From Affinundibacterium nitidum (lineage in GTDB: Bacteria; Pseudomonadota; Gammaproteobacteria; Burkholderiales; Burkholderiaceae_D), in the NCBI RefSeq assembly GCF_014284155.1, contig NZ_JACOFZ010000001.1:310001-374000 (forward strand): a stretch of DNA of 64,000 nt, in the 5' to 3' direction. The position numbers and the translations under genes are program-made. Numbering within the stretch: the first letter of the stretch is position 1; each line of letters starts with the position of its first letter. This document shows, piece by piece, positions 1,433 to 10,804 of the stretch. The notes beneath the pieces were generated by a model. That model did not search any database. It worked only from the letters and a program-made list of their open reading frames with translations, and was not told where the DNA came from.

Positions 1433-1476
1433 AAGTAATGCCAAGCCAAATATTTACCATTAAAAGTGAGCGAGTA

Positions 1477-2760
1477 ATGCAAGATCAACGTCAAAGGGTT
1501 GCAGTAATAGGTTCAGGAATCTCGGGCCTCGCAAGCGCCTATTTTTTGCAAAAAAAATATGATGTCACTCTCTATGAATCGAATACATACTTCGGTGGCC
1601 ATACCAATACTGTCGACATCACGGTCGATGGTATTACACAGCCGGTTGATACTGGTTTTTTGGTTTTTAACCACAAAACATATCCCAATTTAATCGCACT
1701 CTTCGCCGAACTTGGAATCGACAGTTACGACACCGACATGTCTTTTGGTGTTTCAGTTAATGATGGTCAAATCGAGTGGGCAGGTACCAATTTAAACACC
1801 GTATTCGCGCAAAGAACTAATTTGCTGTCGATACCATTCATCAATATGCTGCGTGACATCTTGCGCTTTAATAAGGATGCTGAAGCCAATCTCGAAGCTT
1901 CATTGACCAATAAGGTCAACCTAGGTGAACTGTTGAAGAACGAAGGATATGGGCGCCGCTTTCAAGAGCATTATTTAGTTCCAATGGCCGCCGCAATTTG
2001 GTCAAGTTCACCGAAGGATATTCTTGAGTTCCCAGCCAGTACGTTTCTCAGATTTTGTTTGAATCACGCGCTACTACAGGTCAATGACAGGCCAAAATGG
2101 AAAACCGTTAAAGGCGGTGGACGCAGTTATGTCAAGAAAATTCTCGAAACAATCAGCGATAAAAGGCTTAATACCGCAGTAGAAAAAGTGGAGCGTCAAC
2201 AAGGCAAGGTAGCGGTCACGGCAAATGGGGGCACGGAACTTTTCGACGAAGTTGTTTTCGCTACTCACGCACCTACCAGTCTTGCGCTGCTTAAGGATGC
2301 TGATGAGAAAGAGAGAAAAATACTCTCGCAATTCCGTTATCAGACCAACCGTGCAGTGTTGCATACGGATACTCGTCTGCTACCTAGTAATAAAAACGTA
2401 TGGTCCGCATGGAACTATATTGGTACCAAGGCGACAGGACCGGAAGATCAAGCTGCGGTTTGTGTAAGCTATTTATTGAATCAATTACAGCGTCTTGAAA
2501 TCAAGGCACCAGTCATTGTTACGCTAAATCCTGCAGTAGAACCACAACCTTCGAAAGTCTTACGAAGTTTTGATTACGAACACCCTATCTTCGACCAGGC
2601 GGCAATTGATGCTCAAGTCGCATTAGTCGAGATCCAAGGCAAAAACAAAGTTTGGTTTACAGGGGCTTGGTCTGGCTATGGATTTCACGAGGATGGACTC
2701 AAGTCGGCGTTAAAAGTTGCAACAGCCATAGGCGTTGCTCCTGAATGGATGAAGCTCTAA
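1477..2760 (+). CDS. FAD-dependent amine-oxidase-fold oxidoreductase (COG2907 type)
   Basis: A 427-residue flavoprotein of the amine oxidase/phytoene desaturase fold. The Rossmann dinucleotide motif VAVIGSGISGLASAYFL starts at residue 8, followed by the second FAD motif around FGGHTNT. The C-terminus ends in the FAD-closing segment GAWSGYGFHEDGLKSAL. COG2907-type proteins typically sit next to DUF1365 and CFA-synthase-like genes, as here, and probably oxidise or desaturate a fatty acyl chain; that role is inference. I chose the ATG at 1477 over the one at 1438 because it puts the FAD motif at the usual distance from the N-terminus. It is the first gene of the operon; the next start follows after 2 bases. 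Confidence 0.88.
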   Translation: MQDQRQRVAVIGSGISGLASAYFLQKKYDVTLYESNTYFGGHTNTVDITVDGITQPVDTGFLVFNHKTYPNLIALFAELGIDSYDTDMSFGVSVNDGQIEWAGTNLNTVFAQRTNLLSIPFINMLRDILRFNKDAEANLEASLTNKVNLGELLKNEGYGRRFQEHYLVPMAAAIWSSSPKDILEFPASTFLRFCLNHALLQVNDRPKWKTVKGGGRSYVKKILETISDKRLNTAVEKVERQQGKVAVTANGGTELFDEVVFATHAPTSLALLKDADEKERKILSQFRYQTNRAVLHTDTRLLPSNKNVWSAWNYIGTKATGPEDQAAVCVSYLLNQLQRLEIKAPVIVTLNPAVEPQPSKVLRSFDYEHPIFDQAAIDAQVALVEIQGKNKVWFTGAWSGYGFHEDGLKSALKVATAIGVAPEWMKL

Positions 2761-2762
2761 TC

Positions 2763-3566
2763 ATGAAACTCGCTTTGCGATCAAAACTGTTGGTTGGGAA
2801 GGTGATGCATGAGCGAATGCATCCTAAATCCCATCGTTTTGTCTATCCTATTTTCCTATTACGGTTAGACCTTCAAGAGTTAGAAAACAATAGCGATGCT
2901 CTTAATAGTGCGATCTTCGGCGTAAATAAATGGCGTCCTCTATCCATTTATTTGAAAGACTACGGGCCGAGAGACGGATCCAGTCTATTTGTGTGGGCGA
3001 ACAAACTGCTCGTTGAACATGGAATGCAAAAAGCCAGTCGTATTGAGCTGCAGAGTTTTCCGCGCATTTTCTCATACGCGTTTAACCCAATTTGTATCTG
3101 GTATTGTTTTGATCAACAAGATGAATTGTTGAGTGTGATCGCAGAGGTCAACAATACTTTCGGTGACCATCACTTCTATCTGCTAACGAACTCCAATGAA
3201 AACCGCGTGAAAGAAGATACCATTTTGCAGAGTGTGAAGTCGATGCATGTCTCTCCATTCTGCGAGGTTAAGGGTCGGTATGAATTTCAATTCAAAGACA
3301 ACAAAAATCACAGCGTGGTGAAAATTGACTATTTTGAAGATCAAGATCTGACGATCAAAACAGCGATCGGCGCTACGATTAAATTATTTACTCCAAAAAA
3401 TTTACTAATCGCATTCGCAAAGCAACCCTTACTGACATTTGGCGTGTTTTGGCGAATTCACTGGCAAGCATTCCTACTGTGGTCAAAGGCGGTTCCATTC
3501 TTTCGCTTACCACAAAGTTCAAAACACAAAATTACAATCGGCACACCAATTCGAGAGGAGCATTAA
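2763..3566 (+). CDS. DUF1365 family protein
   Basis: A 267-residue DUF1365 protein with the family opening SKLLVGKVMHERMHPKSHRFVYP and the conserved FNPICIWYCFD and EVNNTFGDHHFYL blocks in the middle. The biochemical function of DUF1365 is not established. It is almost always encoded between a COG2907 flavoprotein and a CFA-synthase-like methyltransferase, which points to fatty-acid modification. The ATG at 2763 was preferred over the one at 2745, which would overlap the upstream gene by 16 bases, because it places the conserved YVGKVMH-like block at its usual position. The stop codon abuts the next start with no gap, so translation is probably coupled. Confidence 0.88.
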   Translation: MKLALRSKLLVGKVMHERMHPKSHRFVYPIFLLRLDLQELENNSDALNSAIFGVNKWRPLSIYLKDYGPRDGSSLFVWANKLLVEHGMQKASRIELQSFPRIFSYAFNPICIWYCFDQQDELLSVIAEVNNTFGDHHFYLLTNSNENRVKEDTILQSVKSMHVSPFCEVKGRYEFQFKDNKNHSVVKIDYFEDQDLTIKTAIGATIKLFTPKNLLIAFAKQPLLTFGVFWRIHWQAFLLWSKAVPFFRLPQSSKHKITIGTPIREEH

Positions 3567-4811
3567 ATGACTTCGATGCAAACCAATAACACCTGCCTCA
3601 ACATCGATGGCGCGAAAATGTCGCTCCCGGAGAAGGCGCCTACCACTGCGAAATTTTTCCTCAAAATGCTAGCAAAGTTAAAGCACGGGAATTTGCATCT
3701 GGTGACTCCTGATAATCATGTTCTCCATTTCGGAGACACCACTCAAGCACAAGCAGTCGTCTTGCATATCCATGATTGGCGTGCATGTGCAAAGATCATG
3801 CGCAGCGGTGATATAGGCTTTGCTGAGGCTCTGGAAGCTGGCTGGATAACCACGACAGACTTAACCGCCCTCTTACGTTTAGCCATTCGAAATGAAGCAA
3901 CCTTAGACCAGGCGATTTTTGGTGGTCGCATCATGTCGATCTGGTACAAAATCAAACATCTACTACGATCAAATACAAAAGAAGGAAGCCGCAAGAATAT
4001 TCATGCCCACTACGACCTTGGAAATAACTTTTATCGTCTATGGCTAGATCCAAGCTGGACCTATTCTAGTGCAATTTTTTATAAGGACTATCAGATAAGT
4101 CTCCAAGAAGCCCAATATCGTAAGTATCAACGAATTATCGATGTCTTAGGCTTGAAAACTGGTGACAAGGTATTGGAAATTGGATGTGGCTGGGGTGGCT
4201 TTGCAGAACACGCTGCTCAGCAAGGTATCGAAGTTCATGGCATCACGATTTCAAAAGCCCAGCTAGAAATTGCGCAAGAGAGAATTCAACGCCAACAACT
4301 AGACAAACTTGTTCGACTTGAATTATGTGACTATCGTGATTTGAATAGCCAATATGACGCGATTGTCTCAATTGAAATGTTTGAAGCCGTCGGTGAGAAA
4401 TTTTGGCCGACCTACTTTGCGACGGTTGAGCGTTGCCTGAAGCCTAGCGGAAAAGCATTAATTCAATCCATCACAATCGATGAAAAACATTTTGAACGCT
4501 ATCGTAGTGGCTCCGATTTTATTCAACAATACATTTTCCCAGGTGGCATGTTGCCAAGCCCTGAAAGGTTCATTGCGAATGCGCAGCAATACAATTTAGA
4601 AACTACCAATTCATTCGCCTTTGGTTTGGATTATGCAGAGACCTTAAGACGTTGGAATAAGGCCTTTGACCAAGAGATTGAGGCCATTGCACAACAAGGT
4701 TTCGATCCAAAATTCCAACGCATTTGGCAGATGTATTTTTCGTATTGTGAAGCAGGCTTCGAGGAAAAACGTACCGACGTCTATCAGTTCCTCCTCCAGA
4801 AAAAGGGCTAA
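3567..4811 (+). CDS. CFA-synthase-like SAM-dependent lipid methyltransferase
   Basis: A 414-residue member of the cyclopropane-fatty-acyl-phospholipid synthase family, acting on membrane phospholipid acyl chains. A N-terminal lipid-binding domain (about 1-135) precedes the methyltransferase domain, with HYDLGN at 148-153 and the SAM motif VLEIGCGWGGFAEH at 202-215. In E. coli Cfa the bicarbonate site uses Cys139, Glu239, His266 and Tyr317. By eye the Glu (E273) and Tyr (Y356) are kept, but Cys is Ser168 (YSSAIF), the His after Glu is Ala274 (FEAVG) and His266 aligns with Gln300. Cyclopropanation by the usual mechanism is therefore doubtful; simple methylation or another one-carbon transfer is more likely. 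A good ribosome site, GAGAGGAG, precedes the ATG. Confidence 0.88.
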   Translation: MTSMQTNNTCLNIDGAKMSLPEKAPTTAKFFLKMLAKLKHGNLHLVTPDNHVLHFGDTTQAQAVVLHIHDWRACAKIMRSGDIGFAEALEAGWITTTDLTALLRLAIRNEATLDQAIFGGRIMSIWYKIKHLLRSNTKEGSRKNIHAHYDLGNNFYRLWLDPSWTYSSAIFYKDYQISLQEAQYRKYQRIIDVLGLKTGDKVLEIGCGWGGFAEHAAQQGIEVHGITISKAQLEIAQERIQRQQLDKLVRLELCDYRDLNSQYDAIVSIEMFEAVGEKFWPTYFATVERCLKPSGKALIQSITIDEKHFERYRSGSDFIQQYIFPGGMLPSPERFIANAQQYNLETTNSFAFGLDYAETLRRWNKAFDQEIEAIAQQGFDPKFQRIWQMYFSYCEAGFEEKRTDVYQFLLQKKG

Positions 4812-4812
4812 C

Positions 4813-5337
4813 GTGAAAACTATTGGCTCAATCATTATTCTGATCTCGCTGATCTTCAATGCACCAGCAAAAGCACAAGAATGGCGCAAGGATATTCCGC
4901 AGGCACAACTTCTCGGATCTGGTGAATTTACATGGTGGGGCTTATCTATTTACACCGCAAAACTTTGGCATGGACAAAACAGTTTCAATGTAGATGACGA
5001 CTTTGCGCTCGAGTTAACCTACCACAAAAATATCAGCAGGGATCGTTTTGTGGACGCCAGCATTGACGAGATCAAACGTCTGCAAGGAAGTAAATTGACG
5101 CCAGAACAATTACAACTTTGGCGTAGTTACATGCAAAAATCCTTTGTTGACGTTAAGCCTGGAGATCAACTTATCGGTGTCAAGCTCGCAAAACGAGGTT
5201 GCCGCTTTTATAGCAGGGAAAAGCTCATTAGCGAAATTAATGATGAAGCGTTTGCACAGGCTTTTTTCTCAATCTGGTTAGACCCACGTAGCAAAGATCA
5301 AGATCTACGTGCGCGTATTTTGGGAAAAGCAAAATGA
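4813..5337 (+). CDS. Secreted chalcone-isomerase-like protein
   Basis: A 174-residue periplasmic protein of the bacterial chalcone-isomerase-like family. The GTG at 4813 lies 1 base after the upstream stop, has an AAAAGGG-type ribosome site, and gives a clean signal peptide (KTIGSIIILISLIFNAPAKA) cleaved before QEWRKD. Longer upstream starts would simply read through the end of the methyltransferase gene. Conserved family features include the LLGSGEFTWWGLSIYTAKLW block and the C-terminal FFSIWLDPRSKDQDLR block. Plant proteins of the same fold bind fatty acids, so a fatty-acid-binding role would suit the operon; this is inference, and no flavonoid chemistry is implied. It overlaps the MFS gene by 4 bases (ATGA). 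Confidence 0.85.
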   Translation: MKTIGSIIILISLIFNAPAKAQEWRKDIPQAQLLGSGEFTWWGLSIYTAKLWHGQNSFNVDDDFALELTYHKNISRDRFVDASIDEIKRLQGSKLTPEQLQLWRSYMQKSFVDVKPGDQLIGVKLAKRGCRFYSREKLISEINDEAFAQAFFSIWLDPRSKDQDLRARILGKAK

Positions 5338-6620
5338 AGCGGTTCGGGCATGTTTTCTATGGACTACTAGGTCTCCCATTAGCCATGGCGAGCTTGCCCA
5401 TGTACGTGCAACTACCTGCTTACTATACGCAGCAACTTGGATTACCCATGGCTGCCGTCGGTTACGTCTTATTTTTCACACGATTATTCGATACATTCCA
5501 AGATCCGTTTCTTGGCGTGTTAATCAACCGTTATAAGGCATCACACCCACTCTCTTATATCGTTGGGGGCGTATTAATGGCGCTTGCATTCGCCGCTCTG
5601 TGGTTACCCCCGCTATGGATTCAACGTGATCTGCATTTGAGTTTAGTTTGGATTGGCTTTATGCTTTTCTTCGCTTACAGCGCCCATAGTTTGTTGAACA
5701 TTGCTTACCTTTCATGGGGAGCAGAACTGGGGAAGGAAACGGGGCCTGAAACAAACTCGGCTACCCTGCTCGGTGCAGCTACATGGCGTGAAGCTTTCGG
5801 ACTTCTCGGCGTGATTTTGGCTAGCATCGCACCGGCATTTCTACTGATTGGAACACCTGATGAGCAGCGAGACAAACTCGCGGTGTATTGTGGATTGTTT
5901 GGGATCGCCATAGCACTGTCTATTTTTGTGCTCTTGAAGTTCGCTTCCAGGCCACATGAATATCAAACAAATCAGTCAAGTCTCAGGTCACAAATAAGTC
6001 AAATTAGCACAGATAAAAAGGTAAGGCCTTTGTTCCTCGCTTACTTGATTAACTCACTGGCAGTTGCTTTACCGGCGAGCTTGATGCTGTTTTTTGTAGA
6101 CCAACAAATTGGCGCCAACGAAAAATTGCCGCAATTTTTAGTCTCCTATTTTGTTTCCGGAGCGATTGGATTACCAGTCTGGCTGTTGTGCGCTAAACGC
6201 TTCGGCAGTCGAATTGTGTGGCAGGTGAGCCTATTGATCTCTATTTTTGCATTCATCGGAGCAGCGTTTCTTACCCGAGGAGACGTCAATGGTTACACGA
6301 TTATTTGCATTACCTCTGGGCTGTGCCTTGGCGCTGACCTTGTTTTGCCGCCGGTTCTACTCTCGGAACAGCTTGGGACGAGTACTCAGCACGCAAGTTA
6401 TTTCGGTGTCTGGACATTTCTTGGAAAGATAGCGCTTGCAACATCAAGTTTGAGTCTGCCACTACTCGATTTCTTACAAAAGAATGCAGACTTTATCGGT
6501 GCGACAAAAGGACTGGTTGACAATATTGCTTTAGTGATGTGCTATGCGTTGATCCCATGCGCGCTCAAGATTCTTACATTTATTTGCCTCATTGATTCAC
6601 ACAAAAGGAATACAAAATGA
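5334..6620 (+). CDS. MFS transporter (GPH/melibiose-carrier-like)
   Basis: A 428-residue inner-membrane carrier with about 12 hydrophobic segments and the GPH-type N-terminal half (GLLGLPLAMASLPMYVQLP, then FTRLFDTFQDPFLGVLINR). Carriers of this subfamily usually move sugars or drugs with cations. In this operon type the substrate is unknown; a lipid or lipid precursor is possible but unproven. Its start codon overlaps the previous stop (ATGA), and its own stop overlaps the next start in the same way, so it is translationally coupled on both sides. Confidence 0.88.
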   Translation: MKRFGHVFYGLLGLPLAMASLPMYVQLPAYYTQQLGLPMAAVGYVLFFTRLFDTFQDPFLGVLINRYKASHPLSYIVGGVLMALAFAALWLPPLWIQRDLHLSLVWIGFMLFFAYSAHSLLNIAYLSWGAELGKETGPETNSATLLGAATWREAFGLLGVILASIAPAFLLIGTPDEQRDKLAVYCGLFGIAIALSIFVLLKFASRPHEYQTNQSSLRSQISQISTDKKVRPLFLAYLINSLAVALPASLMLFFVDQQIGANEKLPQFLVSYFVSGAIGLPVWLLCAKRFGSRIVWQVSLLISIFAFIGAAFLTRGDVNGYTIICITSGLCLGADLVLPPVLLSEQLGTSTQHASYFGVWTFLGKIALATSSLSLPLLDFLQKNADFIGATKGLVDNIALVMCYALIPCALKILTFICLIDSHKRNTK

Positions 6621-7144
6621 TACGCCGCCTAATAAGTTTGTTTTGTTTAATGCTGCTAAGTGCTTGTGCAGTCACCGACGTCAACGTCTATCGTAACGAA
6701 TCGCCAAAGCTAGATTTGGAAAAATTCTTTGTCGGAAAAACAGATGCATGGGGTATTTTTCAGAAGCGATCCGGAGAGGTAGTTAAACGCTTTCACGTTG
6801 AAATTGAGGGAAAGAAAGTCGGTGATGATTTGGTGTTGGATGAGCACTTTACCTACAGCGATGGTACAAAACAGCAGCGTATTTGGCGCTTGAGTAAAAC
6901 CGGAACTAACCGGTGGTCCGGTCGAGCAGATGATGTAAAGGGTGATGCGCAGGGTGAGCTAGCTGGTAATGCTTTCAAATGGGAATATGTACTCTTGCTT
7001 CCTGTCGACGGCACCACCTATGAAATGCATATGGACGATTGGATGTATCTGGTCGACGACAATACCCTCGTGAATCGAACCAAAATGAGCAAATTCGGTA
7101 TTGACCTAGGTGAAGTAAGCATATTCTTCCGTCGGAGACTCTAA
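6617..7144 (+). CDS. DUF3833 lipoprotein
   Basis: A 175-residue lipoprotein of the DUF3833 family. The signal peptide ends in the lipobox LLSACA, with the acylated Cys at about residue 17. The conserved blocks LEKFFVGKTDAWGIFQKRSGEV and the WMYLVDDNTLVNRTKMSKFGI C-terminal block are clear. The fold is probably a small lipocalin-like beta barrel that could shuttle a lipid in the periplasm (inference). It starts inside the stop of the MFS gene (ATGA) and ends overlapping the SDR start by 1 base. Confidence 0.87.
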   Translation: MIRRLISLFCLMLLSACAVTDVNVYRNESPKLDLEKFFVGKTDAWGIFQKRSGEVVKRFHVEIEGKKVGDDLVLDEHFTYSDGTKQQRIWRLSKTGTNRWSGRADDVKGDAQGELAGNAFKWEYVLLLPVDGTTYEMHMDDWMYLVDDNTLVNRTKMSKFGIDLGEVSIFFRRRL

Positions 7145-7932
7145 TGTTTCCATTCCGAACACCGCTTAACCGACCAATACGAGACTGGTCACAGCAACGA
7201 GTCTGGATCATCGGTGCATCGAGCGGGATTGGTGCTGCACTTGCCAAAACTTTGCTCGACAAAGGTGCAAACGTCATTCTCTCTGCACGCCGCATCGAAC
7301 GATTACTTGAATTGTCGGCGCAATACCCGAAAGCGCTTAGTTTAGCTATGGATGTCGCCGATAGTTCATCTTGGGCTACGGCTTTGCAAAGTCTCAAGGG
7401 AGACATTGACCAAATTGATTTGATTATTTTCTGCGCAGCCAAATACCACCCCGAGAGATCATGGGAATTGGTCCCGATGGAGACTGAGAATACAATCAGC
7501 ATCAATCTTCAAAGCGTGTACCAGGGCATTCAAAGCGTTTTGCCTTCAATGATCGCAAGAGGAAGCGGCGGTATTGCGGTGATAGCCAGCGTCGCTGGTT
7601 ATTTAGGGCTGCCCAATGCTACCGTTTATGGGCCGAGCAAAGCTGCACTCATTAACTTAGCGGAATTACTTTACTCAGATTTACATACTAAAAACATTAA
7701 TGTCTACTTGATCAACCCGGGCTTTGTCAGTACGGAACTGACGGCAAAAAACAACTTCTTTATGCCTGCGTTGCAAACGCCTGAGCAAGCTGCGCATGCG
7801 ATTATCGAAGGGTTTGAGGCGGGTGATTTCGAGATACATTTTCCAAAACGTTTTACGTTTGTTCTCAAGCTTATGCAAATGTTGCCGTATCGATTACGGT
7901 TCGCTTTAATTAGAAAATTCGTTACGGTTTAA
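7144..7932 (+). CDS. Short-chain dehydrogenase/reductase (SDR)
   Basis: A 262-residue classical SDR. The cofactor motif WIIGASSGIGAALA is near residue 22. ARRIERL after the second strand favours NADP(H). The catalytic Ser lies in VIASVAGY, and the Tyr and Lys in YGPSKAAL. The substrate is not recognisable; as part of the operon a fatty-acyl carbonyl or alcohol is the obvious candidate. It overlaps the preceding stop by 1 base and is followed after 6 bases by the last operon gene. Confidence 0.9.
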   Translation: MFPFRTPLNRPIRDWSQQRVWIIGASSGIGAALAKTLLDKGANVILSARRIERLLELSAQYPKALSLAMDVADSSSWATALQSLKGDIDQIDLIIFCAAKYHPERSWELVPMETENTISINLQSVYQGIQSVLPSMIARGSGGIAVIASVAGYLGLPNATVYGPSKAALINLAELLYSDLHTKNINVYLINPGFVSTELTAKNNFFMPALQTPEQAAHAIIEGFEAGDFEIHFPKRFTFVLKLMQMLPYRLRFALIRKFVTV

Positions 7933-7938
7933 TTTATC

Positions 7939-8358
7939 ATGACTCCACCTGTACAAGCGATCGTCGATTGGTATTCCAATTTAAGTGAAAAAAGTTTACA
8001 TGACATTTCGAACTTATATGTGAACGATGCTTTCTTCAAAGACCCTTTCAACGAGGTTCATGATGTCGAGGGTATCAAAAAAATCTTCTCACATATGTTT
8101 AGGACTACGGTCGATCCCAAATTTGTGTTTAAAGAGGTATTCGAGCAAGGAAATCACGTATTCTTGAGTTGGATTTTCCACTTTAAGCTCGAGCAGAAGA
8201 CATATGAGGTTCATGGAGCAACGCATCTGGTACTGGCATCGAGTGGCAAGATAGAGTTACACAGAGATTATTGGGACCCAGCTGAAGAATTATGGCAAAA
8301 GCTTCCGATCTTAGGCAAACTAGTCGCTTGGTTGCGGAGTAAATTTAAAGCGCACTAA
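7939..8358 (+). CDS. NTF2/SnoaL-like protein
   Basis: A 139-residue small alpha+beta barrel protein of the NTF2-like (SnoaL-type) superfamily. The start reads VQAIVDWYSNLSEKSLHDISNLY, followed by FFKDPFNEVHDVEGIKKIF, a typical pocket-forming arrangement. The C-terminal part (HRDYWDPAEELWQKLPILG) matches the versions linked to DUF1365/CFA-type operons. It may be an isomerase or hydratase-type partner, or simply bind a lipid; no catalytic dyad can be assigned by eye. It is the last gene of the operon, 6 bases after the SDR. No clear terminator follows. Confidence 0.82.
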   Translation: MTPPVQAIVDWYSNLSEKSLHDISNLYVNDAFFKDPFNEVHDVEGIKKIFSHMFRTTVDPKFVFKEVFEQGNHVFLSWIFHFKLEQKTYEVHGATHLVLASSGKIELHRDYWDPAEELWQKLPILGKLVAWLRSKFKAH

Positions 8359-8648
8359 CCTCATCCATTTCGCCGCGCAAACCTCCCGGCTATGTTAAAA
8401 CAGAAGTGACTTTAGTTCATCCAATCAAATCTTGGGCGTGGGATTTCCTCGCATTCAAGAGAAAGCTCACACTCAAAAGACAATAAAGTATCCGAGTTTA
8501 TGCATACTGGGACTCAGATCTACTTGTCTCTGAAGCCTATTCTGCTAAAATTGACGCCTACTTATAACCAAAACGAATACGCTTATTCGTTTTGGTTATA
8601 AGCAGTGAAAATTATCGTCAATTGCTCTCTTTCGCCTCCTTGGAAACC
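8359..8648. other. Intergenic region upstream of the desulfurase fusion
   Basis: These 290 bases separate the lipid operon from the desulfurase fusion gene. I see no gene or clear factor-independent terminator. The only strong structure is the perfect inverted repeat at 8561-8602. A TATAAC sequence (8563-8568) lies within the left arm and could be a -10 box, but no convincing -35 box accompanies it. Confidence 0.6.
8561..8602. repeat. Perfect 19-bp inverted repeat with 4-base loop
   Basis: The left arm CTTATAACCAAAACGAATA (8561-8579) is the exact reverse complement of 8584-8602, separated by CGCT. It ends 46 bases before the ATG of the desulfurase fusion. There is no trailing T-run, so it is not a standard terminator in either direction. 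It may be an operator overlapping the promoter, a leader-RNA hairpin, or a small palindromic repeat element. Confidence 0.85.
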
Positions 8649-10751
8649 ATGTCAATTTCTTCCCGCGTTATTTACCTAGATTCAAATGCTACTACGCCTG
8701 TCATGCCGCTTGCCCTTGAAGCAGCACGCGCTGTTATGGAAGATGACTATGGCAATCCAAGCAGTGTACATAGCAGTGGTTTGCAAGCCAAAGCGGTGAT
8801 GGAGCAAGCAAGAGCCACTGCTTGCGACTTGCTTGGGTGTTCAGAAGGCAAACTTCTCTTTGTGAGTGGCGCGACAGAAGGTATACAAACAGCGGTGTTT
8901 TCAGCTCTGCTCGCACTCCGCGAAAAACAGGCGCAGGATGAAAAAGTAGGGACTGATCTTTTATATGGTGCGACTGAACACAAAGCTGTACCTGAGTCTC
9001 TCCATCACTGGAATACTGTTCTTAATTTGAATTTCCGTATCCTTGCTATTCCCGTCGACAATGCTGGTCGGCACGACTTAAAATTCATCGAAGAACATAT
9101 TCAAGACGCCGGTTTGATTTGCACCATGGCGGCTAACAATGAAACAGGTGTTATTACCGATTTAGTGAGTATTGAAAATCTCATCAAAGATAGCCCGGCA
9201 TATTGGTTGGTCGATGGTGTTCAAGCACTCGGAAAACTTCCACTGAAACTCAATCAGCACAGGATCGACTATTCCCTTTTCTCTGGACATAAGCTTTATG
9301 CGCCAAAAGGAATCGGCATGCTATACGTGCACAAGGATGCGCCGTTTACACCATTGCTAGCAGGTGGTGGCCAGGAGAGTAGCTTACGCTCGGGTACTGA
9401 AAACGTATCGGGAATCGCCGCGCTTGGTGCAGTGATGAAAGCCTTGGGTGATGGCATCAGCTTTCGTGATCACGCGACGCTCAGTCGATATCGCTTACAG
9501 CTTTTGGAGGCGATGCGTGATGCATTTCCTGGCTTAATACTGAATGCTTCGCTAGAAGAAAGTCTACCGACGACACTCAATTTTTCAGTCCCAGGTTTGA
9601 CCAGCAAAGAAATTCTTGATCTGTTTGATGCTGCAGATGTACGCGTCAGCGCAGGATCTGCCTGCAGTGCTGCAAAGGCCCAGCCAAGTTTCGTTTTGCA
9701 AGCAATGGCGTTACCTGAATGGCAGGCAGCTAGCGCAGTGCGTGTATCATTTGGCCCTGCTACCACCCAAGATTATATTGATGAGGCATGCAAACGTGTG
9801 CGCGTATGCGGTGAAGCTTTGCGCAAGACTTGCATGGTGACAGGTGACATTGAGCCCCTGCCGGCAGATGGCGTAATGCAACTCAGTTTTGGCGCCGCAT
9901 GTACTTGGATCATTGCAAACGCGGCCACTAAAGAGTGCGTGGTGATTGATCCACTTCCTGAATTAATTGAACGAATTGCGAAGTATATGCGCTGTCAACA
10001 TTACTCGGTAAAGGCTGTACTGGCAACGAACAGTCATCCTCAGCAAGATCTTCATAATTCATCTTTAATCAAGCTATTAGCAGATGCGTATTCGGGCGCA
10101 CAGAACGACGATCCAAGCGGATTCTATACCGACTCAAACTCGTCAAGTTTGGAGAGCTCTGAAAAGTATCTAAGCTTAGGCAAAATGAAAATTCGGAAGT
10201 TGGATTCCCAACTGCAAACGGAAACACACTTTGTCTATCTGTATGGTTCAACAGAATCACAAATACAATTCGCTTTTTGCGGTGATGTATTACGCAATGA
10301 ACGCCTAAGCAACGAACAAAGAAGCGACATCGAGAATCAGTTTTCAAAGCATACCTTGATTTGTGTCGCACATGACTTTGAAAAACAACTCGTATCCCGC
10401 CTCGAGTCATCTCAAGAGTGCAAGCTAGAAGATGTAACGATCCCATCTTCAGGTCTCAACGAGTTTCTTCGCACGCACCCAGGCACCGTCATGGTAGATG
10501 TACGAGAACCATACGAACAGCAGTTAAGCCATTTCGATGTACCAGCTGGTACTGAGGTTTTGCACGTGCCTTTAAGTCGTTTAGCCAACGGCGTAGATAG
10601 ATGGTTACGCACAGAAGACCACGCAAAAGCCCCTCTTCTGTTTTTCTGTCGTACTGGAGGCCGCAGCTCGCAAGCCGTTCAATGCCTACGACGTTTAGGA
10701 TATGCTAATGCATGGCATATTGCAGGAGGCCTAGCGCTCTGGCAACACTAG
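8649..10751 (+). CDS. Three-domain fusion: cysteine desulfurase, degenerate MBL (ETHE1-like), rhodanese
   Basis: A 700-residue sulfur-handling protein. Residues 1-400 are a NifS/IscS-type PLP cysteine desulfurase with His111 (TEHKAV), PLP lysine K215 (SGHKLYAPKG) and the persulfide cysteine C339 in SAGSACSA. Residues about 404-581 resemble the metallo-beta-lactamase fold of ETHE1 persulfide dioxygenases: VVIDPLPELIERI, FCGDVL and CVAHDF are recognisable, but the HxHxDH metal motif is replaced by NSHPQQD (461-467), so iron binding is unlikely. Residues about 605-700 are a rhodanese with catalytic C667 in CRTGGRSS. The protein could pass the desulfurase persulfide directly to the rhodanese Cys (inference). 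The ATG at 8649 was chosen because upstream codons run into the inverted repeat. Confidence 0.9.
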   Translation: MSISSRVIYLDSNATTPVMPLALEAARAVMEDDYGNPSSVHSSGLQAKAVMEQARATACDLLGCSEGKLLFVSGATEGIQTAVFSALLALREKQAQDEKVGTDLLYGATEHKAVPESLHHWNTVLNLNFRILAIPVDNAGRHDLKFIEEHIQDAGLICTMAANNETGVITDLVSIENLIKDSPAYWLVDGVQALGKLPLKLNQHRIDYSLFSGHKLYAPKGIGMLYVHKDAPFTPLLAGGGQESSLRSGTENVSGIAALGAVMKALGDGISFRDHATLSRYRLQLLEAMRDAFPGLILNASLEESLPTTLNFSVPGLTSKEILDLFDAADVRVSAGSACSAAKAQPSFVLQAMALPEWQAASAVRVSFGPATTQDYIDEACKRVRVCGEALRKTCMVTGDIEPLPADGVMQLSFGAACTWIIANAATKECVVIDPLPELIERIAKYMRCQHYSVKAVLATNSHPQQDLHNSSLIKLLADAYSGAQNDDPSGFYTDSNSSSLESSEKYLSLGKMKIRKLDSQLQTETHFVYLYGSTESQIQFAFCGDVLRNERLSNEQRSDIENQFSKHTLICVAHDFEKQLVSRLESSQECKLEDVTIPSSGLNEFLRTHPGTVMVDVREPYEQQLSHFDVPAGTEVLHVPLSRLANGVDRWLRTEDHAKAPLLFFCRTGGRSSQAVQCLRRLGYANAWHIAGGLALWQH

Positions 10752-10762
10752 TCATCAAAAAA

Positions 10763-10804
10763 ATAAAAAAGACTTGCAACGCTACGCTGCAAGTCTTTTT
10801 TTTT
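10763..10804. terminator. Bidirectional factor-independent terminator
   Basis: The hairpin GACTTGCA-N8-TGCAAGTC is flanked by an A-run on the left and a T-run on the right. It lies 12 bases after the stop of the desulfurase fusion and about 40 bases beyond the stop of the convergent small lipoprotein gene, so it can serve both. Confidence 0.88.

Follow-up and report, generated by a model that had tools for sequence, protein, structure and literature searches.

Among the systems that have been described, two fused sulfur enzymes come closest to the protein analysed here. The cysteine desulfurase-rhodanese protein (CD-Rhd) of Pseudorhodoferax sp. Leaf274 (WP_056898193.1; Selles 2022) was reported to pass sulfur between its two cysteines with very high activity; its kcat/KM for L-cysteine of about 2e4 per M per s goes with the top activity in that paper's table of desulfurases, and the C466S variant was about ten-fold less active with glutathione or beta-mercaptoethanol (PMC8931425). 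The CyReB sensor was built on this enzyme (PMC12319549). The second is the persulfide dioxygenase (PDO)-rhodanese fusion (PRF) BpPRF (PDB 5ve3/5ve4/5ve5), a 373-aa chain that has no desulfurase. In the window, by which we mean the whole analysed stretch of 64,000 nucleotides from Affinundibacterium nitidum (contig NZ_JACOFZ010000001.1, positions 310,001 to 374,000), one gene joins a cysteine desulfurase, a domain of the metallo-beta-lactamase (MBL) fold and a rhodanese. We incline to the view that it encodes a cysteine-desulfurating sulfurtransferase derived from an ancestor with three modules, which would dispose of cysteine sulfur, or handle its overflow, apart from the housekeeping Isc system. 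The modules themselves are all known, and both the two-domain CD-Rhd and fusions of a PDO with a rhodanese have been published; what is new to the literature found is the three-way combination and its repeated decay. The first-pass annotation, made from the letters alone, took a three-way fusion to be not well described, and we likewise found no description of one in the open-licence literature, which is weak evidence of absence; the architecture nevertheless belongs to a family, and the two-domain CD-Rhd has been characterised.

The fusion gene is a single uninterrupted frame, with an alternative start further upstream at TTG 8592 in the list of open reading frames (ORFs). All three domains seen by the first-pass annotation are present in this frame, but the catalytic residues are intact in only two of them. 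The Aminotran_5 family covers residues 8-378 (E 1.5e-58), solved cysteine desulfurases match the N-terminal domain at 1.7e-57, and the nearest NCBIfam families are NifS (best, 1.8e-85), DndA and IscS. With the group I desulfurases NifS and IscS the domain shares the Aminotran_5 fold, the pyridoxal phosphate (PLP) lysine and the cysteine in a GSACSA loop, so that group I desulfurase activity is predicted; unlike them, it falls under the cut-off of all 25 NCBIfam families shown, is 31% identical to the IscS-like gene on contig C43 of its own genome and stands apart from four outgroup desulfurases in our tree. At the other end, Rhodanese (PF00581) covers residues 612-699 (E 1.3e-7) with an active-site loop, CRTGGR, of the CxxGxR form, and two further Pfam names in the C-terminal part, BLH_phosphatase and CbiJ, are weak and under cut-off. 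The positions that had been given for K215, C339 and C667 were borne out by alignment, the three residues being invariant in a 43-sequence alignment. A chance ORF or artefact was ruled out, because near full-length relatives at 47-53% identity exist in the same family, and the fusion is the sole full-length copy in its 4.38 Mb genome.

The middle domain is of a different kind. Pfam found no Lactamase_B in the whole protein at E up to 1, and the middle piece alone matched no family at E up to 10, in a search whose HMMER filters drop most weak matches. However, a profile of 11 degenerate middle domains (the window protein, nine Oxalobacteraceae or Burkholderiaceae relatives and one unclassified betaproteobacterium) matched the PDO 4ysb (4.6e-7), BpPRF (1.3e-4), human ETHE1 (7.2e-4) and also PA1813. 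The domain also aligns with the complete MBL domain of the Pseudoalteromonas member L033, whose C-terminal part has BpPRF as its best solved relative (5.3e-21), with homology that spans the two domains in identical order; next come an MBL-fold protein, human ETHE1 and others. Homology to ETHE1-type PDOs is thus found. The iron ligands of these enzymes are His79, His135 and Asp154 in human ETHE1 (PMC4383860) and His71, His146 and Asp163 in the PDO of P. aeruginosa, PaPDO (PMC12856154), and they were mapped by alignment onto the family. In the window protein both histidines are replaced, by N461 and Q523, and only D546 is kept; three of seven MBL motif residues are left, and H463 and H575 are also kept. 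The protein therefore has the domain order of a PRF without its iron site, and, in contrast to BpPRF, human ETHE1 and the bacterial PDOs, lacks two of the three ligands. Dioxygenase activity is doubted because two of the three ligands are replaced, and a working PDO in the window protein was rejected on that ground; a mono-iron dioxygenase built on N461, Q523 and D546 would be very unlikely. The earlier "persulfide-dioxygenase-like" is right as a statement of homology, but it is likely that "persulfide dioxygenase" names the ancestry of this domain and not its activity, and the case cautions that alignment to PDOs does not make a protein one. A search of the own genome for a second ETHE1-like MBL protein acting in trans, with one query, gave one other, weak match (E 5.2e-7).

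The architecture is a family and not a one-off. A scan of genome contigs gave the best 80 loci, and the frequencies describe that sample: gammaproteobacteria (Pseudoalteromonas, Shewanella, Colwellia, Ferrimonas, Idiomarina, Rheinheimera and relatives), many betaproteobacteria, Verrucomicrobiota, Planctomycetota and one bin of the Bdellovibrionota (Oligoflexia). For residue comparison we used 112 members, which are 115 less the duplicates L009, L012 and L015, with L031 omitted for its runs of N; L008 and L102 are one gene and are counted twice among them. All 112 keep the PLP lysine, the catalytic cysteines of desulfurase and rhodanese, and the arginine of the rhodanese. In contrast, only 59 have a complete 2-His-1-Asp iron triad, and 47 of these have all seven scored MBL residues; the triad is broken in 53, where no triad residue is left in 42, one in eight and two in three. 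In the other 12 triad-complete members the Asp and/or His of the HxHxDH motif, residues of the second MBL metal site, have been lost while the iron triad was kept, which fits a mono-iron PDO and not a two-metal glyoxalase II. The MBL domain is absent altogether from four of the 53 broken members (L115-L118, all from the window's own family, f1), proteins of 510-518 aa with a desulfurase, a short linker and a rhodanese, both cysteines kept. These four join desulfurase and rhodanese directly, as CD-Rhd does, whereas in the window protein the degenerate domain intervenes. Within the sample the PLP site and both sulfur cysteines were never given up and the dioxygenase is optional, a pattern that fits an enzyme whose core act is to desulfurate cysteine and pass the sulfur on to the rhodanese.

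Loss of the dioxygenase was also followed on trees. On the desulfurase-domain tree of the 112 members and four outgroup desulfurases, the label intact or broken needs five changes, four of which are forced by starred branches, compared with a mean of 37 when the labels are shuffled; a careful tree of 67 rows gave five as well (bootstrap 5%-95%: 5-5), whether or not the window row was included. Three changes, two of them forced, account for the deletion of the MBL domain. Parsimony on the 67-row tree permits one regain of the triad within the betaproteobacteria; if no regain is assumed, about eight losses are counted by eye (Idiomarinaceae, L088, L017 with L022, L025, an Oxalobacteraceae-type group with L097, L098 with L114, L106, and the window row). 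The best tree places the window protein, on a long branch, with Roseateles/Pelomonas-type sequences (support 98/94, 18-row set). Holding it, with L103 included, with the 26-row Oxalobacteraceae-type group, the main one of its own family, is not rejected (p-AU 0.265; 0.064 when L097 is added), and the idea of horizontal transfer of the gene from a Roseateles/Pelomonas lineage was withdrawn on that account.

The dead domain has not drifted freely. Its median dN/dS in three broken groups is 0.21, 0.26 and 0.34, well below 1, which rules out free drift, and the corresponding rhodanese values are 0.10, 0.18 and 0.19. In triad groups the medians for MBL versus rhodanese are 0.19 vs 0.20, 0.21 vs 0.10 and 0.15 vs 0.13. 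The MBL/rhodanese ratio is about 2.2, 1.4 and 1.8 in the broken groups and 1.0 (Pelomonas), 1.1 (a second Pseudoalteromonas group) and 2.0 (Rheinheimera, four usable pairs) in the triad groups, so that relaxed constraint on the dead domain is no more than suggested. One might suppose a channelled enzyme in the window organism with all three sites at work, the middle domain still acting as a dioxygenase through other ligands. The domain has indeed been retained, related groups show purifying selection, and D546, H463 and H575 are in place, but with two of three ligands replaced, the triad broken in 53 of the 112 members through at least five changes on the tree, and four relatives managing without any middle domain, we regard this explanation as highly improbable.

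Architecture, residue conservation, the pattern of loss and the neighbourhoods are observed here, whereas every chemical step in the window protein, the way the sulfur flows and what the protein is for are inferred from conserved residues, family membership and described analogues. The PLP domain would take sulfur from L-cysteine, leaving a persulfide on C339 and releasing alanine, and the sulfur would then move from C339 to C667 of the rhodanese. This transfer, proposed in the first-pass annotation as channelled, is plausible because the two-domain Pseudorhodoferax enzyme was reported to carry it out (PMC8931425), although channelling through a working dioxygenase between the two sites finds no support in the window protein. 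In relatives with the full triad, the persulfide may pass to glutathione, and the middle PDO would oxidise the glutathione persulfide (GSSH) to sulfite with O2; the rhodanese may in addition join sulfite and sulfane sulfur to thiosulfate, and transporters of the TauE type encoded nearby would export the product. The oxidation step would be lost in the window protein because its iron site is broken. There the reaction would stop at the rhodanese-bound persulfide, which may be given to glutathione or other thiols as a low-molecular-weight persulfide or H2S, with the middle domain as a spacer or scaffold.

The acceptor of the sulfur had been left unknown in the first-pass annotation, and the neighbours of relatives narrow the choice. 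A DecR-like gene was sought in 114 loci, a census that includes the duplicates L009, L012 and L015 as well as L031 and excludes L013 and L024, and was found within 2 kb upstream of the fusion in 55. It is divergent in 53 of these, where the distance between the end of the match and the start of the fusion is 100-255 bp, and runs in the same direction as the fusion in the other two (L081 and L106). The DecR score exceeds the Lrp score in all 55; the L115 protein, for instance, shares 50% identity with E. coli DecR and 39% with Lrp. Outside the census, L013 and L024 are also positive, and L079 has a DecR-like gene downstream. Among betaproteobacterial members the upstream gene is present in 51 of 63 (12 of 16 with the triad, 39 of 47 without it). 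DecR, also called YbaO or CyuR, is a cysteine-responsive activator of cysteine degradation (PMC11408624), and in E. coli the CyuA of the cyuPA genes is a desulfidase giving pyruvate, ammonium and H2S (PMC9040844). The relatives of the fusion resemble the DecR/CyuR-cyuPA system in pairing with a DecR-like regulator, and a cysteine sensor next door suggests that the enzyme removes surplus cysteine.

A second neighbour is TauE, found in six of the 86 loci searched, each time adjoining the fusion; these are six of the ten Verrucomicrobiota/Planctomycetota loci. It is convergent with the fusion in L051, L058 and L067, downstream on the same strand in L068 and directly upstream on the same strand in L215 and L216, two loci that were assigned to the Planctomycetota side by the order search around the L057 genome. 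Five of the six were confirmed by Pfam TauE, and that of L215 rests on tblastn. Oxidation to sulfite by the full form would explain these neighbours. In L216 (6798-10783), TauE and the fusion share a strand, and beside them is a divergent Lrp/AsnC gene whose protein is nearer to Lrp (35%) than to DecR (29%).

Other neighbourhoods speak for a dedicated donor of sulfur to Fe-S clusters or thio-cofactors, in which the fusion would substitute for SufS or IscS and its rhodanese would hand sulfur to SufB, TusA or another carrier. In L064 (5940-13213) the genes for SufC, SufB, SufD, the fusion, a Rieske protein and SufT, names that were checked against protein families, follow one another in one direction, and relatives of SufD, Rieske and SufT surround the fusion in L054 and L057; these three Planctomycetota loci favour Fe-S supply. 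Upstream of the fusion in nine Pseudoalteromonas loci are genes for TusA (identified by PF01206 in L056 and by annotation in L034) and for a transporter, as would suit a sulfur relay. However, L054 and L057 share an opposite-strand frame between SufD and the fusion (in gaps of 1244 and 892 bp), leaving an uninterrupted operon in one locus only, both of their genomes carry other desulfurase genes, and two further Planctomycetota loci carry TauE instead; L060 has neither TauE nor suf genes in flanks of about 2 kb. The betaproteobacterial partner, moreover, is the DecR-like gene, and the window genome has an isc cluster of its own, which we also count for a non-housekeeping role: no Isc genes lie near the fusion, as had been stated, and frames on contig C43 in a row with IscS read by eye as IscR, IscU, IscA and HscB. 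We consider a dedicated donor unlikely.

It is also conceivable that the enzyme serves protein persulfidation or H2S production in defence against redox or antibiotic stress, with cysteine disposal being incidental. The Pseudorhodoferax enzyme oxidises roGFP2 by transpersulfidation and gives H2S with glutathione, and its authors propose such roles (PMC8931425). Against this, no stress-response partner was seen by eye in the 45 largest neighbour clusters or in 29 neighbourhoods, and a working PDO, as predicted in 59 of the 112 members, would destroy low-molecular-weight persulfides. A stress-defence role seems to us more doubtful still than service as a dedicated donor.

Several further observations weigh against disposal of cysteine sulfur as the role of the window gene. 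There is no DecR-like gene in the 2 kb upstream of it, in which it differs from its relatives and from the E. coli system (the CyuR operator motif was not searched), its own genome holds no close DecR match (best 40%), and no TauE, suf or TusA gene adjoins it; for these reasons its role is argued from relatives. The window gene shares the want of an adjoining DecR-like gene with the betaproteobacterial members L017, L022, L025, L076, L084, L094, L098 and L114. The DecR-like protein itself is named only as Lrp-type by NCBIfam, under every cut-off shown. The TauE genes of L051, L058 and L067 are not in an operon with the fusion because they are convergent, and the suf and TusA loci described above count on the same side. 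A dead MBL domain under purifying selection, as its dN/dS values indicate, still does something.

For the family as a whole, a broader proposal is one that we hold more tentatively than cysteine-sulfur disposal by the window gene: its members may convert cysteine to alanine and sulfite or thiosulfate on one chain, with export by TauE or control by cysteine sensing, and lineages would repeatedly have killed or deleted the dioxygenase to give persulfide- or H2S-releasing enzymes that keep both cysteines, the window protein being one such conversion. The members form a natural series: all three sites present, a middle site that is dead, or no middle domain at all. Along this series one sulfur relay would be expected to yield either sulfite or persulfide, which makes it possible to test whether attaching a dioxygenase to a cysteine desulfurase relay determines if the sulfur is oxidised or released. 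As a lead, the series may also point to the source of CD-Rhd, the two-domain enzyme of unusually high activity on which a cysteine biosensor is based. CD-Rhd likewise carries a cysteine desulfurase and a C-terminal rhodanese on one chain with both catalytic cysteines, and its published spacing, C334-C466, resembles C338-C479 of the two-domain L115; in contrast, the main text of that paper contains the words "lactamase", "dioxygenase" and "ETHE1" zero times and mentions no MBL-derived domain (PMC8931425). Common descent of CD-Rhd with the fusion family is a lead only.

In the window's family the fusion occurs in 38 of 146 genomes, its own included (10 of 44 genera), and in none of the seven other genomes of the genus at E 1e-60. 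A class search at E 1e-80 found it in one of 369 genomes, its own alone. The order search with the two-domain query at 1e-60 gave 22 of 399; the top seven, at E 2.8e-151 or lower, belong to the family, whereas the remainder resemble ordinary desulfurases at 37-42% identity. Searches in the family of the G812 genome and in the Planctomycetota order around the L057 genome found one of 10 and three of 196, respectively. Carriage by phage was ruled out, no relative having appeared in the viral scan, and so was carriage as plasmid cargo: among the 398 plasmid records matched, three cover at least 80% of the query, and all are Pseudoalteromonas replicons of 0.8-1.3 Mb. The genome of L101 (G901, Ramlibacter) has two fusion-type desulfurases, possibly paralogues, in open frames of 787 and 789 aa, 63% and 57% identical to the window desulfurase domain.

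Table 1. Features of the fusion gene and its flanks, in positions of the window
Feature	Position	Strand	Basis
Palindrome, two 22-nt arms, 95% complementary, 4-nt centre, 43 bp before ATG; putative operator	8558..8605	.	Sequence scan
Fusion gene, ATG to stop: cysteine desulfurase / degenerate PDO-type MBL / rhodanese, 700 aa	8649..10751	+	ORF list of the window and domain searches
Group I (NifS/IscS-like) cysteine desulfurase domain, about residues 8-392	8670..9824	+	Pfam, NCBIfam, PDB
K215, PLP lysine	9291..9293	+	Alignment; kept 112/112
C339, desulfurase catalytic cysteine, GSACSA loop	9663..9665	+	Alignment; kept 112/112
Degenerate ETHE1/PDO-type MBL domain, about residues 405-580	9861..10388	+	Profile match to PDO structures, ligand positions
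Rhodanese domain, about residues 598-700	10440..10748	+	PF00581, 1.3e-7 at residues 612-699
C667, rhodanese catalytic cysteine in CxxGxR loop	10647..10649	+	Alignment; kept 112/112
Terminator-like hairpin after fusion gene	10765..10801	. (scan: - strand; + strand also ends in T run)	Weak

The palindrome upstream of the fusion (Table 1) may be an operator. Exact matches of its 18-mer in the own genome are its two half-sites only, and its pattern was not commoner than a reversed control in four genomes (4 vs 7, 8 vs 7, 5 vs 6 and 18 vs 17); one match lies near a CysG-like frame by eye. Half-sites with up to three mismatches were found in the 400 bp upstream of 12 of 110 members, a count made without a shuffle control, and the 11 besides the window are all gammaproteobacterial. 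When the upstream regions of E. coli cysK, cysP and cysJ were compared with the pattern for a likeness to CysB sites, 9, 11 and 12 of 14 positions agreed at best. The terminator scan found one hairpin against 2.8 expected in shuffles. Inspection by eye of the upstream regions of L033-L062 showed AT-rich TTATA or GTTATA sequences, possibly operators, no more than about 100 bp from the start in many Alteromonadales members.

Neighbouring genes were called mechanically, and some frames in high-GC loci are spurious. The window gene follows a DUF1365/cyclopropane synthase/DUF3833/SDR/SnoaL cluster; directly upstream, at 1438-8358, the genes are amine oxidase-like, DUF1365, cyclopropane synthase, chalcone isomerase-like, MFS, DUF3833, SDR and SnoaL, an arrangement that we take to resemble photoprotective clusters of the ChrR type. 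Downstream of the fusion, a very long gene lies on the same strand in 11 loci (L099, L100, L102, L104, L105, L107, L108 and L110-L113), for example of 2914 aa in L111 and 2972 aa in L104, and similar starts follow the fusion by eye in L115, L116, L118, L120 and L123.

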